NCBI GenBank assembly: GCA_023150915.1
Contig: JAKLKA010000022.1
Coordinates: 1-64,000, forward strand
DNA length: 64,000 nt
Source of the DNA: Polyangiaceae bacterium
GTDB taxonomy: Bacteria; Myxococcota_A; Polyangia; Polyangiales; Polyangiaceae
Reading direction: 5' to 3'
The notes under the pieces were generated by a model. It searched no databases. It had not been told where the DNA came from and saw only the letters and a program-made list of their open reading frames with translations. Within the stretch, counting starts at the first letter, position 1, and every line of letters starts with the position of its first letter. Made by a program: the position numbers and the translations under genes. Positions 9,153-35,702 of the stretch are shown here, piece by piece.

Positions 9153-10787
9153 GTGACCCCGAACCGCACCCTCGCCCTCTGCCTCGTGTCCCTTGGTTTT
9201 GCCCACGGCTGCACCACCGGCCAGAGCCGCCCGGCGTACCAGCCCGCGCCCTACCCCGGCGGCTACGCCGTCGCGCAAAACCCGCCGCCCCCGCAGGCTC
9301 CGCCGCCGCCCGCGCAGCGGCCCGCACCGTTCTGGGGTTTCCAGCTTCCGCCGCTGCCCCCTCCCCCGCCCGCGTCGGCGTTTCAGATCCCGCCGCCGCC
9401 CGCAGGCTGGGGCAACCTCGGCGGCATCCCGATCCCGCCCATCCCGGGCTTTCCCGGCCAGCCGTCCCAGCCCGGGGGCCAGCCCACGCAACCCGGCGGC
9501 CAACCCTCGCAGCCGCCCGCGGCCAAGGGGATCAAGGGTTGCGGCGTGGCGAACGTCGGCGGCGAGCAGTTCTTGCTCGACTGCATGACGCCCACCTACG
9601 CCAACGTGGCCGAGGCCAGCCAGTACGTGGTGCGTCGCAAGGCGTTCAACGCGAGCCCCGCGCACGAAGGCGCCGACCCCTTACCGACCGTGGTCGATCA
9701 CCGCGCCGCGGGCACCGAAGGCCCGGTGCGCAATCAAGGCCCCGTCGGTGCGTGCACCGGCTTCTCGCTCTCGACCGCCATCGATCACGCCATGGCCACC
9801 ACCACCGGCACGCCCGGCAACGTGAGCGTGATGCAGGTCTGGGCGCGCTATCACTACCCCACGATGCAAGATGCCGCGTCGGCCAACAAGGGCAAGGCGC
9901 TCGGCAGCGAGGGCTCGTGGCCTTACGACAAGGTCGAGGCCTGCAAGTACTGGTCGGGCTCGGGCTGCGACTGCGGTTCGATGCTGAACGTGTCGTGCCG
10001 CCAACCGGTGGACAGCGCCAAGCTGGGCCAGCTCGACTCGGCGCCCACGGCCAAGGTCACCAACATCACGCGCCTGCCCGACGGTGATCTCTCCGAGATC
10101 AAAGGCGCCATCGCCAAGGGCCAGGACGTGTGGTTCGCGATGTGGGTCGACGACGCCTTCCAGGCGGTGAAGGGCTCGCCCGCGGTGATCCCCGACGGCG
10201 ACTTCCGCTACTCGGGCTCGGGGCACGCGATGGTGCTCGCGGGCTACAAGGTGCAGAGCAACGGCACGTATTACCTGATCCACAACAGCTGGGGCACCAA
10301 GTGGGGCGACGGCGGCTACGCCTGGATCCACGAGAAGACGCTGCTCACGAACCTGCGCTACTCGTACCTGGTGGACGTGAGCACGCCGAGCGGCGGCGAC
10401 AAACCCAACAAGCCCGGCGAGCCCACGCCGCCCGCGCAGAGCCCCGGCGACTGCCCGCCCGGCACCGCGCCCGACAGCGGCATCCCGATCTGCGTGCCGC
10501 CCTGCCCCGACGGCAGCCCGCGTCACTTCAACACCTGCCCGGTCGCGCAGAACAGCGGCTGCCCCGCCGGCAAGGTCAACATCTTCGGCTTCTGCGTCAC
10601 CGCGCCGAAGCAAGGCTTCGGTCAAGACGCCGCCACCGGCGTGCGTCACAGCTGCGGCGCCGGCGGCTGCACCTACGTGGTGCCGAAGGGCAGCGCGGGC
10701 TGCAACCTGCCGGTCTGCGTGAAGTCGTGCCCGAGCCCGAAGTATCTGCTCACGGCAGGGCCACTCGGGATGGGCTGCGCGGAGTAG
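9153..10787 (+). CDS. Secreted papain-family (C1A) cysteine protease with Pro-rich linker and Cys-rich tail
   Basis: A 544-residue lipoprotein-type exported protease. From GTG 9153 there is a signal peptide with lipobox AHGC, a long Pro/Gly-rich linker containing repeats such as GGQPTQP and PPPPP, and then a C1A domain: oxyanion Gln and nucleophile in VRNQGPVGACTGFS, catalytic His in SGHAMVLAGY and Asn in HNSWGTKWGDGGYAWI. After a second Pro/Gly linker comes a Cys-rich C-terminal module of about 100 residues ending ...GPLGMGCAE. That terminal module is duplicated downstream at 11595-11799 and its last residues occur in three more places in the window. Confidence 0.9.
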   Translation: MTPNRTLALCLVSLGFAHGCTTGQSRPAYQPAPYPGGYAVAQNPPPPQAPPPPAQRPAPFWGFQLPPLPPPPPASAFQIPPPPAGWGNLGGIPIPPIPGFPGQPSQPGGQPTQPGGQPSQPPAAKGIKGCGVANVGGEQFLLDCMTPTYANVAEASQYVVRRKAFNASPAHEGADPLPTVVDHRAAGTEGPVRNQGPVGACTGFSLSTAIDHAMATTTGTPGNVSVMQVWARYHYPTMQDAASANKGKALGSEGSWPYDKVEACKYWSGSGCDCGSMLNVSCRQPVDSAKLGQLDSAPTAKVTNITRLPDGDLSEIKGAIAKGQDVWFAMWVDDAFQAVKGSPAVIPDGDFRYSGSGHAMVLAGYKVQSNGTYYLIHNSWGTKWGDGGYAWIHEKTLLTNLRYSYLVDVSTPSGGDKPNKPGEPTPPAQSPGDCPPGTAPDSGIPICVPPCPDGSPRHFNTCPVAQNSGCPAGKVNIFGFCVTAPKQGFGQDAATGVRHSCGAGGCTYVVPKGSAGCNLPVCVKSCPSPKYLLTAGPLGMGCAE

Positions 10788-10793
10788 GGAACC

Positions 10794-11186
10794 TCAGGTC
10801 CAAGACATGAGGGCCAGACCGTCGATCTCCTGAAAGTGTTCGTCGCGCGTCAGCACCGCGGCGCCCGAAGCGATCGCTGTCGCCGCGATCCAGATGTCAT
10901 TCTCAGGGATCGGTCTCCCGCGCTGCTTGAGGTCGAGACGCACGCGGCCGTAGGCCGCCACCACCGCTTCGTCTACGGCCGCGAATCGGCATTCGTCGCG
11001 GAGCGCCCGGATTCTGGCCAGGTTCGTATCAGCCATGCGCGAATTCAGGGCGCCGTAGGTGAGCTCTCCAAGAACGACGGCAGACACGAGGACGTCGCCC
11101 GCTGCGTCCAGAATCGCGGCTACTCTGGCGTCACCCGCCAGGAGCGCGATGAACGCGTTGGTATCCGGAATGATGCTACCAGGCAC
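10794..11186 (-). CDS. VapC-type PIN-domain toxin
   Basis: A 130-residue PIN-domain ribonuclease, toxin of a type II toxin-antitoxin pair; family members cut initiator tRNA or rRNA when the antitoxin is degraded. The acidic residues are all present: Asp in IPDTNAF, Glu in VLGELTYG, Asp in ENDIWIAATAI and Asp in LTRDEHF. The start overlaps the 3' end of the antitoxin gene by 11 bases, the normal TA arrangement. The stop lies 6 bases from the papain-like gene's stop, convergent. Confidence 0.92.
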   Translation of the reverse strand: MPGSIIPDTNAFIALLAGDARVAAILDAAGDVLVSAVVLGELTYGALNSRMADTNLARIRALRDECRFAAVDEAVVAAYGRVRLDLKQRGRPIPENDIWIAATAIASGAAVLTRDEHFQEIDGLALMSWT

Positions 11187-11394
11187 TCAGGTCGATCCGT
11201 TCGCAGTCTTCGATGGCACGCGCCATTGCTTCTGCTTCATCACGTCCCAGCGTCCCAACCAGCGCAGCAAATCGGCCGCCCCCGTCAGACGTGCCCGGGG
11301 CGAGCTCGTCGACGAGATGCTTCACCCTCTCGAGCTGCTTGGGTGGCAGACGTCGGAGCTTCTCCAGAAGTGCGTCGAGTTCTGCTGCGGCCAC
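11176..11394 (-). CDS. Type II antitoxin partner of VapC
   Basis: A 72-residue protein immediately upstream of and overlapping the VapC toxin. It is predicted to be helical at the N-terminus (LDALLEKLRRLPPKQLERVKHL) with an acidic C-terminus (AIEDCERIDLSAW), the usual layout for a DNA-binding or dimerising segment followed by a toxin-wrapping tail. The exact antitoxin family is not clear. Confidence 0.8.
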   Translation of the reverse strand: MAAAELDALLEKLRRLPPKQLERVKHLVDELAPGTSDGGGRFAALVGTLGRDEAEAMARAIEDCERIDLSAW

Positions 11395-11458: not shown

Positions 11459-11594
11459 TCTTCGGAGCGACGCGTCCCCTCCGCCCGCGTACGCGCGAGC
11501 AATGGCACGAGGCGGGCGGTCTTGGCAGGGCGTCCCCGCTCGCGCGCACCGGGCTTGGAGGGGACCGCGGAGCGAAGCGACGCGAGGGGGAGGC
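11459..11594 (+). repeat. Non-coding leader of dispersed repeat R1, copy 2
   Basis: This block begins TCGGAGCGACGCGTCCCCTCC (at 11462) and ends GGGGGAGGCAGGAA, directly before a copy of the papain-like gene's 3' end. A related block lies at 12660-12771 and the first 20 bases recur at 25972. Alignment between copies is interrupted by small indels, but the order of shared words is the same (CGACGCGTCCC, GGTCTTGGC, GCTCGCGC, CACCGG, GGAGGCAGGAA). Confidence 0.6.
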
Positions 11595-11799
11595 AGGAAA
11601 ATCTGCGTCACCGCCCCCAAGCAAGGCTTCGGTCAAGACGCCGCCACCGGCGTGCGTCACAGCTGCGGCGCCGGCGGCTGCACGTACGTGGTGCCGAAGG
11701 GCAGCGCGGGCTGCAACCTGCCGGTCTGCGTGAAGTCGTGCCCAAGCCCGAAGTATCTGCTCACGGCAGGGCCACTCGGGATGGGCTGCGCGGAGTGAG
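11595..11799 (+). repeat. Duplicated 3' end of the papain-like protease gene
   Basis: About 200 bases nearly identical to 10586-10787, encoding the same 65-residue Cys-rich tail ICVTAPKQGFGQ...GPLGMGCAE and stop. Differences I can see are GCG-CCG to GCC-CCC, ACC to ACG, CCG to CCA and stop TAG to TGA, all synonymous within the tail. It has no protease body; in frame it is preceded by the non-coding R1 leader. It is either a remnant of a second, functional paralogue or an exchangeable C-terminal cassette. Confidence 0.85.
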
Positions 11800-11910: not shown

Positions 11911-12132
11911 ATGGCGCACGCCGAGAAGCCTGGGAGCCAGCCGCCGCCGGAACAGCAGGCGCGTTCGCTCGCTGATCTTGCCGCAGAGCAGGACGTGAAG
12001 CCGGTGCAACAACTCGAGACGGTGAGCGCGCTCTGGCCAGTCGATGACGATCCAGACGCGCTCGACGCTTTTCTCGCGAAGCACCGCTCTTCGCGCCGCG
12101 AGGCGTCCGCAGCTCAGCGGCAAGCCAAGTGA
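11911..12132 (+). CDS. Antitoxin of second VapBC-like module
   Basis: A 73-residue acidic protein starting at ATG 11911 (MAHAEKPGSQ) whose stop overlaps the GTG start of the PIN toxin by 4 bases. The sequence is rich in Glu, Gln and Asp and has a C-terminal stretch DDDPDALDAFLAKHRSSRRE suited to binding the toxin. I see no clear helix-turn-helix or AbrB fold. Its identity as antitoxin rests on the coupling to the PIN gene. Confidence 0.8.
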   Translation: MAHAEKPGSQPPPEQQARSLADLAAEQDVKPVQQLETVSALWPVDDDPDALDAFLAKHRSSRREASAAQRQAK

Positions 12133-12539
12133 GCTCCGTACTCCTCGACACCAGCGTGGCCAGTCTGATCCATCCACGCAGGGTGGGGTCGTCTGTTCGG
12201 GCCGCGTATGAACCCCACATGCGCGGGATGATCCTCGCGGTGAGTTTCCAGACCGTTGCTGAGCTCTGGGCATGGGCGGAAGAGAGCCGCTGGGGCAACG
12301 CCCAGCGTGCGGGTCTCGAGCACTTCCTGTCTCGCTTCGTCGTCGTGCCGTACTCGACCGAGCTCGGACAAACCTGGGCGCGGGTCATGACGGCGGCGCG
12401 ACGAAAGGGTCGGCGAATGGAGGCGGGAGATGCCTGGATCGCGGCGACGGCGGTTTTGTATGCGGCGCCCCTGCTCACGCACGACGAGGACTTCGTCGGT
12501 CTCGACATCGTGGGTCTTGACGTGATCTGCCATGCGTAG
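12129..12539 (+). CDS. VapC-type PIN-domain toxin (second module)
   Basis: A 136-residue PIN-domain ribonuclease. The acidic active-site residues are in VLLDTSV, TVAELWAWAE, EAGDAWIAATAVL and LTHDEDFVGLD. The GTG start overlaps the antitoxin stop (GTGA), implying translational coupling. It differs strongly from the first VapC at 10.8 kb, so the two modules are not recent duplicates of each other. Confidence 0.92.
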   Translation: MSSVLLDTSVASLIHPRRVGSSVRAAYEPHMRGMILAVSFQTVAELWAWAEESRWGNAQRAGLEHFLSRFVVVPYSTELGQTWARVMTAARRKGRRMEAGDAWIAATAVLYAAPLLTHDEDFVGLDIVGLDVICHA

Positions 12540-12659: not shown

Positions 12660-12828
12660 GCTCGGAACGACGCGTCCCCTCCACCCGCGCGCGCTCGAGC
12701 ATCGGAACGGACGTGAGTGGTCTTGGCCAGACGCCACTGCTCGCGCTCACCGGCTAAGGGGAGGCAGGAAGACGAGCCCGAAGTATCTGCTCACGGCGGG
12801 GCCACTGGGGATGGGCTGCGCGGAGTGA
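12660..12828 (+). repeat. Dispersed repeat R1, copy 3 (leader plus short tail)
   Basis: The block starts CTCGGAACGACGCGTCCCCT, passes through GGGGAGGCAGGAAGACGAG and ends with codons for SPKYLLTAGPLGMGCAE and TGA. Relative to copy 2 it carries only the last 17 residues of the papain-like tail. Beyond the stop the sequence GGCG... runs into the 3' end of the lipoprotein gene on the other strand, and that whole junction is repeated at 26.0 kb. Confidence 0.75.
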
Positions 12829-12841
12829 GGCGAGGCGACCC

Positions 12842-12990
12842 GGCGTGCGGGGATCAGCCGAGGATCCCTGCGTCGCGAAGTTCTTGATCGGTGTGTTCGG
12901 AGATCCGAATGAGCTGGCCGAGCGGGCGCATTCGGTCCGGAAGCCGCGAGCCCTCCGTGAGCCCACCGATGATGCCACCGGCGAGCGGGA
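12842..12990. repeat. 149-base duplication, copy A (3' end of lipoprotein gene)
   Basis: Bases 12842-12990 match 26060-26208 with only a few substitutions. Both copies are preceded by the R1 tail ending GGATGGGCTGCGCGGAGTGA, and they diverge abruptly after GGCGAGCGGGA. The encoded C-termini differ at some residues (QLIRISEHTDQELRDAGILG here, QLIQISEYTDQELRDAGILD in copy B). Confidence 0.9.
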
Positions 12991-25970: not shown

Positions 25971-26047
25971 GGAACGACGCGTCCCGTCCGGCCGCGTGTG
26001 CGCGGGCTTCGGAACGTGGGCCTCTCGGGATGGGCTGCGCGGAGTGA
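25971..26047 (+). repeat. Dispersed repeat R1, copy 4 (shortened)
   Basis: Starts ACTCGGAACGACGCGTCCCG and goes after only about 45 bases to CTCGGGATGGGCTGCGCGGA and stop TGA. The inner part of copies 2 and 3, including GGAGGCAGGAA and most of the tail codons, is missing. Downstream it joins the 149-base duplication copy B exactly as copy 3 joins copy A. Confidence 0.75.
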
Positions 26048-26059
26048 GGCGGGGACCTC

Positions 26060-26208
26060 GGCGTGCGGGGATCAGTCGAGGATCCCCGCGTCGCGAAGTT
26101 CTTGATCGGTGTATTCGGAGATCTGAATGAGCTGGCCGAGCGGGCGCATTCGGTCCGGAAGCCGCGAGCCCTCCGTGAGCCCACCGATGATGCCACCGGC
26201 GAGCGGGA
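26060..26208 (-). pseudogene. 149-base duplication, copy B: 3' end of OmpA-like lipoprotein gene
   Basis: On the minus strand it encodes the C-terminus PLGQLIQISEYTDQELRDAG and two more residues to the stop, matching the end of the lipoprotein at 12854. The match stops abruptly after GGCGAGCGGGA; upstream of it there is no related coding sequence. The changes against copy A include amino-acid replacements, so the source was a diverged paralogue. Confidence 0.85.
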
Positions 26209-35186: not shown

Positions 35187-35702
35187 TTGCCGCTTTGGCT
35201 CTCGCCGGCGCGCGGGCGATCTGCAGCGGAAGACGAGCCCGAAGTACCCGCTCACCGCAGGGCCGCTCGGGATGGGCTTGCCGATCCGAATCTCGGCTCT
35301 CCCTCCTGGCATCAAGCGGCAGCGAGTCACCCGCGTGCGTGCATCGAACCTTGGCAGCGCCCGCCGTGGTCCGTTGTTGCAGGGAACGCGCTCGCGTGGC
35401 CGGTTGCCGATTCGTCCGGCGAAGGCGGCGGACCGACCGGTGTCGAGCGAGACAGCTTCATCCTGTCACCGGAATCTGCCATCGGAGCCAGGGCGCTCGC
35501 TCTGTTCGGCATCGTGATGACGGCCTTCGAGCTCGCCCTGCTCGGGCGTGTGATCTTTGGCGGCACCGCGGCCGTGCTCTTCATCGCGAGCTTCTGGATC
35601 ACCGAAGCCCACATCGCACTTGGCGCGCGGGCGCTGCTCGTTCTCGTAGGCGCTGGCGCCATCATCTTTGCGCGTTTGCGCGGCGCAGATTGGCTCGGGT
35701 GA
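35187..35702 (+). CDS. Possible small membrane protein
   Basis: The frame is open for 171 codons, but only the last 75 residues look like protein: three hydrophobic segments (ALALFGIVMTAFELALLGRV, GGTAAVLFIASFWITEA, ALLVLVGAGAIIFARL). The start is unclear; ATG 35517 cuts into the first helix, and the N-terminal part reads through an R1 tail copy in another frame. It may be a truncated membrane protein fused to the repeat. Confidence 0.35.
   Translation: MPLWLSPARGRSAAEDEPEVPAHRRAARDGLADPNLGSPSWHQAAASHPRACIEPWQRPPWSVVAGNALAWPVADSSGEGGGPTGVERDSFILSPESAIGARALALFGIVMTAFELALLGRVIFGGTAAVLFIASFWITEAHIALGARALLVLVGAGAIIFARLRGADWLG
35226..35280 (+). repeat. Dispersed repeat R1, copy 5
   Basis: GCGGAAGACGAGCCCGAAGT, then ACCCGCTCACCGCAGGGCC and GCTCGGGATGGGCTTG match the short-tail version at 12766-12822 with several substitutions (one turns Leu to Pro). 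The final CGCGGAGTGA is replaced by other sequence, so the stop codon of the tail is lost. Confidence 0.7.

Follow-up and report, generated by a model that had tools for sequence, protein, structure and literature searches.

Copies of gene 3' ends behind a structured repeat: a possible gene-capture system in a genus of myxobacteria

Resident genes in one genus of myxobacteria share a recurrent plan, in which the gene and its stop codon are followed by (i) a small accessory gene cassette, often a toxin-antitoxin pair, (ii) a structured repeat of ~130 nt (R), which is dispersed in the genome and ends in GGCA, (iii) 6 nt, and (iv) a copy of that gene's own 3' end. The plan occurs at at least 15 unrelated genes (here termed anchors), including rpoD, hemB, rtcB, clpB and genes for a release factor, ArsA/Get3, a GMC oxidoreductase, a radical SAM protein, GNATs, CAAX proteases and others. 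The reading favored here, with modest confidence and from sequence comparison, is that the displaced tail is the right border of an inserted cassette, with cassettes recombining via the target gene's own 3' end and R serving as the right-hand joining site. More tentatively, the arrays may represent a new gene-capture system, in which R, with its constant end, is recognized by a putative DNA- or RNA-based enzyme that joins cassettes behind any resident gene of which the 3' end travels with them or is copied in the process, such that essential genes act as self-repairing attachment sites. Gene addition of this kind, which leaves the host gene unbroken, is apparently undescribed so far; the open-access literature yielded no description of such a system, which is a weak negative.

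The plan is laid out in the window, the whole 64,000-nt stretch of DNA analyzed (contig JAKLKA010000022.1 of a Polyangiaceae bacterium, assembly GCA_023150915.1), behind a gene for a papain-like protease (Table 1). R lies directly 5' of tail copies 2 and 3, a toxin-antitoxin pair on the minus strand separates the protease gene from copy 2, and an unrelated second pair on the plus strand lies between copies 2 and 3. The initial annotation had described the protease tail as repeated downstream without a protease body, with about five differences that all keep the amino acid. Both points hold: 10591-10787 recurs at 11602-11798, and 10591-10785 aligns with 11602-11796 without gaps at 97.9% identity with five differences. 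All four coding changes (GCG/GCC, CCG/CCC, ACC/ACG and CCG/CCA) are synonymous, for which the neutral chance is about 0.004, and the stop is switched from TAG to TGA. While the copy is real, the start first assigned to it (11595) is the last base of R, and the copy proper runs from 11602. Adenine-directed diversification (DGR) was rejected for the tail differences, as the changes are not A-specific.

Searching related genomes for other proteins with this tail finds it as the end of full-length orthologues in G001 (87% identity), G002 (96%) and G017 (60%); thus, the tail belongs to this gene. The 8-Mb genome contains no further full-length gene with the tail, which removes the intact paralogue first suggested as its source, and the other contigs of this genome hold no convincing copy. 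The alternative suggestion, that the tail is an exchangeable C-terminal cassette, also fails, as the protein is not altered and the tail is restored unchanged; it is the DNA between the tails that would move in. The displaced tail is likewise not a stray pseudogene or paralogue; R and a toxin-antitoxin cassette precede it. Downstream of the array, the 3' part of the neighboring gene (12799-12990) is repeated 13 kb off at 26018-26208, behind a truncated R.

Table 1. Features of the protease array in the window and loci of DUF559 genes. Positions without a prefix are those of the window.
Feature	Position	Strand	Evidence
Anchor gene, papain-like (Peptidase_C1) protease with Cys-rich tail, stop TAG	9153..10787	+	Pfam PF00112, E=2.4e-17; full-length orthologues with same tail in G001, G002, G017
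Tail copy 1, inside protease gene (p to stop)	10591..10787	+	Repeat alignment
Cassette 1 (TA1), PIN-domain (VapC-like) toxin	10794..11186	-	PF01850, E=1.3e-21
Cassette 1, putative 72-aa antitoxin overlapping PIN gene	11176..11394	-	ORF position; no significant family match
Repeat R, full length, ending GGCA	11465..11595	+	cmsearch 119.9 bits, E 9.7e-18
6-nt spacer GGAAAA before tail copy 2	11596..11601	+	Exact +6 spacing common to about 20 R copies
Displaced tail copy 2 (195-nt repeat + stop TGA)	11602..11798	+	Repeat alignment
Cassette 2 (TA2), putative antitoxin	11911..12132	+	ORF; orthologue directly behind protease in G001
Cassette 2, PIN-domain toxin	12129..12539	+	PF01850, E=1.8e-11
Repeat R, second copy, without hairpin 2	12665..12766	+	R search
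6-nt spacer GGAAGA before tail copy 3	12767..12772	+	Sequence
Displaced tail copy 3 (54 nt + stop TGA), 96% over 12773-12826	12773..12828	+	Genome search with tail
Truncated R (first ~46 nt) joined to tail fragment	25972..26017	+	R search
Tail fragment (28-34 nt, 26018-26051) + 3' part of neighboring gene; repeats 12799-12990 at 95%	26018..26208	+	Sequence comparison
Tail fragment (45 nt, 35234-35278, 91%) with GGAAGA spacer, without R; repeats 12767-12817 at 88%	35228..35278	+	Sequence comparison
DUF559 nuclease genes or remnants	L052:16246-16641; L053 about 10955-11377; G001:C2:43325, 100218, 152233

In 39 of 66 R copies, the sequence on the right side of R is a direct repeat of DNA further upstream, as compared to 23 of 400 random positions; about 27 of the 66 are without a nearby tail repeat. 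In about 20 copies the repeat begins exactly 6 nt past GGCA. In the typical case, this segment corresponds to the 3' terminus of an upstream gene and extends to its stop codon (0 to +4 nt for most), an end that may partly reflect the limit of similarity between species. The distance from its internal starting point in the gene (p) to the stop ranges from 39 to 720 nt across anchors, and the tail copies include 44 nt at rpoD and 724 nt at ArsA/Get3 (99.4% identity). On contig C203, R is followed by 275 nt of the hemB 3' end, with the intact hemB 5 kb upstream, while R on contigs C149 and C132 has its own local tails. The latter two contigs overlap by 66 identical bases (L051:17770-17835, L052:1-66) and may be neighbors that form one large R array. 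Mis-assembly is an unlikely source of the R-spacer-tail pattern, as the 5-contig genome G001 has the same pattern and the copies differ in sequence.

The junction point is variable, with four different positions of p in the protease gene alone (10591, 10698, 10707 and 10732). Upstream of p, the gene has a pyrimidine at -1, a non-G at -2 and a non-C at -3 more often than background (permutation p<1e-4 for 19 junctions, treated as independent), a preference to which codon-position bias contributes, with p at a codon boundary in 11 of 18 cases. This preference suggests joining by a sequence-aware enzyme. The spacer is neither a copy nor the complement of the bases upstream of p, and its 6 nt are not common with the gene side. 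R is oriented as the anchor at 15 of 16 anchors by our own count; relative to the stop codon, R is reversed in one anchor family (L052, L101-L104, L157). In the inserts inspected, of which part of the ORFs were scanned, the recognized payloads are toxin-antitoxin pairs, Uma2, DUF4143 and lipoproteins, and no integrase is recognized. The DUF4143/AAA ATPase payload of the rtcB cassette of G002 (L115) recurs at 89% in G000:C250:47572-48818 (L217), with no R nearby.

An alignment of 23 R copies defines the constant ...GGCA end. The predicted fold consists of one long hairpin and a second hairpin, with compensatory double changes at 11 of 31 predicted pairs and, outside the inner helix, an excess of G-U over C-A pairs (16 vs 4). 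By covariance model, R is present in 17, 35 and 16 copies in three congeneric genomes (about 70 in total, with 16 in G002), and matches among 115 genomes of the order are confined to these three and to three weak ones in one other. The R-bearing genomes (G000, which includes the window, G001 and G002) are of one genus of soil/groundwater myxobacteria; several of the genomes are metagenome assemblies, among them G002, a groundwater MAG of the Myxococcales, and a Polyangiaceae MAG that is more distantly related. No Rfam match was found for R (as sampled in the window, L053, L073, L105 and L109), and the search found no R in plasmids or phages. A Y1/RAYT transposase of the REP type was rejected as the mobilizer of R, as PF01797 is absent from G000, G001 and G002. 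Tyrosine recombinase content was likewise rejected as a correlate of R, as every genome checked is rich in these enzymes, whether it carries R or not.

Several variants and neighbors of R are observed apart from the main plan. Short R variants (L156:7412-7491, L162:7950-8030 and L168:7702-7780) abut in reverse the stop of one gene, which encodes a protein ending ..AQLYEK in all three species and is without a tail copy; this is an old fixed position of R. Repeated fragments of RHS-like coding sequence follow a larger variant of about 177 nt (L110:777-2600; L111:7745-10604), which suggests that the tail-copy rule also applies at an RHS gene. At many loci, R is preceded by a divergently oriented gene for a DUF559 nuclease, or by what remains of one, which is a possible source of the activity at R. 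In two regions of G001 (C2:1-160000 and 3178000-3220000), repeated genes are highly abundant, and nearly identical copies of R recur at distances of tens of kilobases.

The differences between gene tails and displaced copies are largely synonymous. Over 16 gene-tail/copy pairs, 107 synonymous and 29 nonsynonymous differences are found (pN/pS 0.09), where derivation of the copy from the gene, followed by decay, predicts a ratio of about 0.5. The nonsynonymous share is 21% as compared to about 60% under neutral decay (p about 1e-13 to 1e-20); p stays below 1e-13 with correction for transition bias, and independent anchors alone give 86 vs 26 differences (p 5e-15). Thus, duplication followed by neutral decay is rejected, and the tails look like alleles that diverged while coding and functional. 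The initial annotation had reasoned that a dead copy should gather replacements and had proposed a substitution ratio as the check; the reasoning extends from the protease pair, which has no replacements, to the pooled pairs, with a ratio not near one. The 275-nt hemB copy holds ancestral bases that the gene has lost and is, thus, a separate allele. Several short, older copies carry replacements, as expected for the time since their displacement.

This pattern bears on the possibility that R is the end of a transposable element, of which staggered cuts 40-720 nt apart copy the 3' end of the gene as a long target-site duplication. Such an element would account for inserts that each lie between two copies of the same segment, for the constant R end and for the target preference at p; at Get3 and rpoD, tails that are 99-100% identical are also compatible with simple duplication. 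We regard this origin as unlikely, however, in view of the low pN/pS, a second boundary that is nearly always a stop codon, and an orientation ratio of 15:1 where 1:1 is expected. The tail copies also vary in length far more widely than known target duplications. IS/MITE elements are similarly dispersed, structured, non-coding repeats of about 130 nt; the short constant target duplication and terminal inverted repeats of these elements are missing at R, where the repeats are 39-720 nt and only one end is conserved.

Comparison of the sister species shows anchors in occupied and less occupied states. In G000, rpoD has no cassette, R or tail copy, and its stop is followed by 29 nt and a conserved block. 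A 450-bp cassette fragment follows the rpoD stop in G002, with neither R nor tail, and the same fragment is joined in G001 by a lipoprotein gene, R and the 44-nt rpoD tail. At rtcB, R and a second tail occur in G002 alone; in G000 and G001 the tail is single and R is missing, and a block further downstream is common to all three genomes. Behind the protease gene, TA2 follows directly in G001, while TA1, R and the tail stand in front of TA2 in G000; TA1, thus, was inserted later and on the anchor side.

Under the favored reading, toxin-antitoxin pairs, candidate defense genes and lipoproteins would be added directly behind the stop codons of resident genes, in units ordered as payload, folded R ending in GGCA, 6 nt and the anchor's 3' end from p to the stop. 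The incoming molecule may bring another cell's allele of the anchor 3' end, linked to payload and R. The left joint would form by recombination within the shared coding tail, and the right joint by connection of the R end to p of the resident tail through a putative factor that recognizes the R fold. Joining via the shared tail would always leave the anchor with a complete reading frame and displace one of the two tails downstream; the stop-codon boundary is explained in this scheme by similarity between genomes of the genus that ends right after the stop. Repeated rounds would place new cassettes beside the anchor, as with TA1 in front of TA2.

Islands that rebuild the 3' ends of protein genes offer a close likeness, as exemplified by e14, an element that contributes the end of icd and leaves 163 bp of it in duplicate, keeping the target gene whole with the truncated 3' end downstream (PMC6379469). 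The arrays described here share the second 3' end beside an intact gene, at at least 15 anchors. They differ in comprising dozens of small cassettes without a recognized integrase at many target genes, with tails of variable length and one common structured repeat before the displaced tails. That R units are themselves such islands, each supplying a new 3' end and recombined at p by a site-specific tyrosine recombinase, is a rather improbable account. The gene-repair logic is the same, and 6 nt is a typical overlap length of tyrosine recombinases; however, p differs at every anchor and among copies at one anchor, such that no fixed core (attB/attP) is found per target, the spacer has no counterpart on the gene side, and the scanned ORFs of the inserts inspected yield no element-encoded integrase.

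Integron cassettes (attC, CALIN arrays) also form small toxin-antitoxin-rich arrays in which each cassette is followed by a folded repeat, and the newest cassette adjoins the anchor, as here at the one locus where order can be judged. By contrast, insertion is here behind housekeeping genes, in units that carry the tail of the anchor gene. Only one of 23 R copies has any match to the attC core boxes (RYYYAAC / GTTRRRY), and this match lies away from the end; attC sites were, therefore, rejected as the identity of R. Without a fixed core, a recognized integrase in the inserts or attC boxes, the system is placed in neither the integron nor the e14/icd class.

Under an RNA route, transcription would read through anchor, payload and R, and the product would be copied by a reverse transcriptase, primed at the R end from a nick at p; this route is considered quite improbable. 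The biased orientation of R with its anchor, the G-U excess in R and the several reverse transcriptases inside R loci are in its favor; however, those examined belong to group II introns, and were rejected as the joining enzyme, and RVT_1 has no match in G002 (assembly 94% complete) despite its 16 R copies. Group II introns (Rfam RF02005/RF02001/RF00029 with RT ORFs) lie within R clusters, next to the hairpins, at L052:14261-16238, L054:1192-3485 and L181:8043-9931, and the first of these introns in L054 interrupts an R copy. They are nested passengers with domains of their own, while the sampled copies of R itself match no Rfam model, including those of group II domain V and D1-D4. An origin without a dedicated system, through segmental duplication or gene conversion of the ordinary kind at a dispersed repeat, is very improbable, as the duplication seen for some blocks (U-R-tail, lipoprotein genes) does not account for the exactness of the 6-nt spacing, the constant end of R and the boundary at the stop codon, which recur at unrelated genes of three genomes.

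If the favored reading is correct, the arrays would add a further route to accessory and defense gene arrays, beside integrons and integrase islands, in which the ends of essential genes serve as landing sites and the genes are unharmed. It would also account for dead-looking gene fragments without replacements, which are liable to be annotated as pseudogenes. A structured repeat, 6 nt and a copy of the upstream gene's end, thus, provide a search rule for such arrays and for the joining enzyme.
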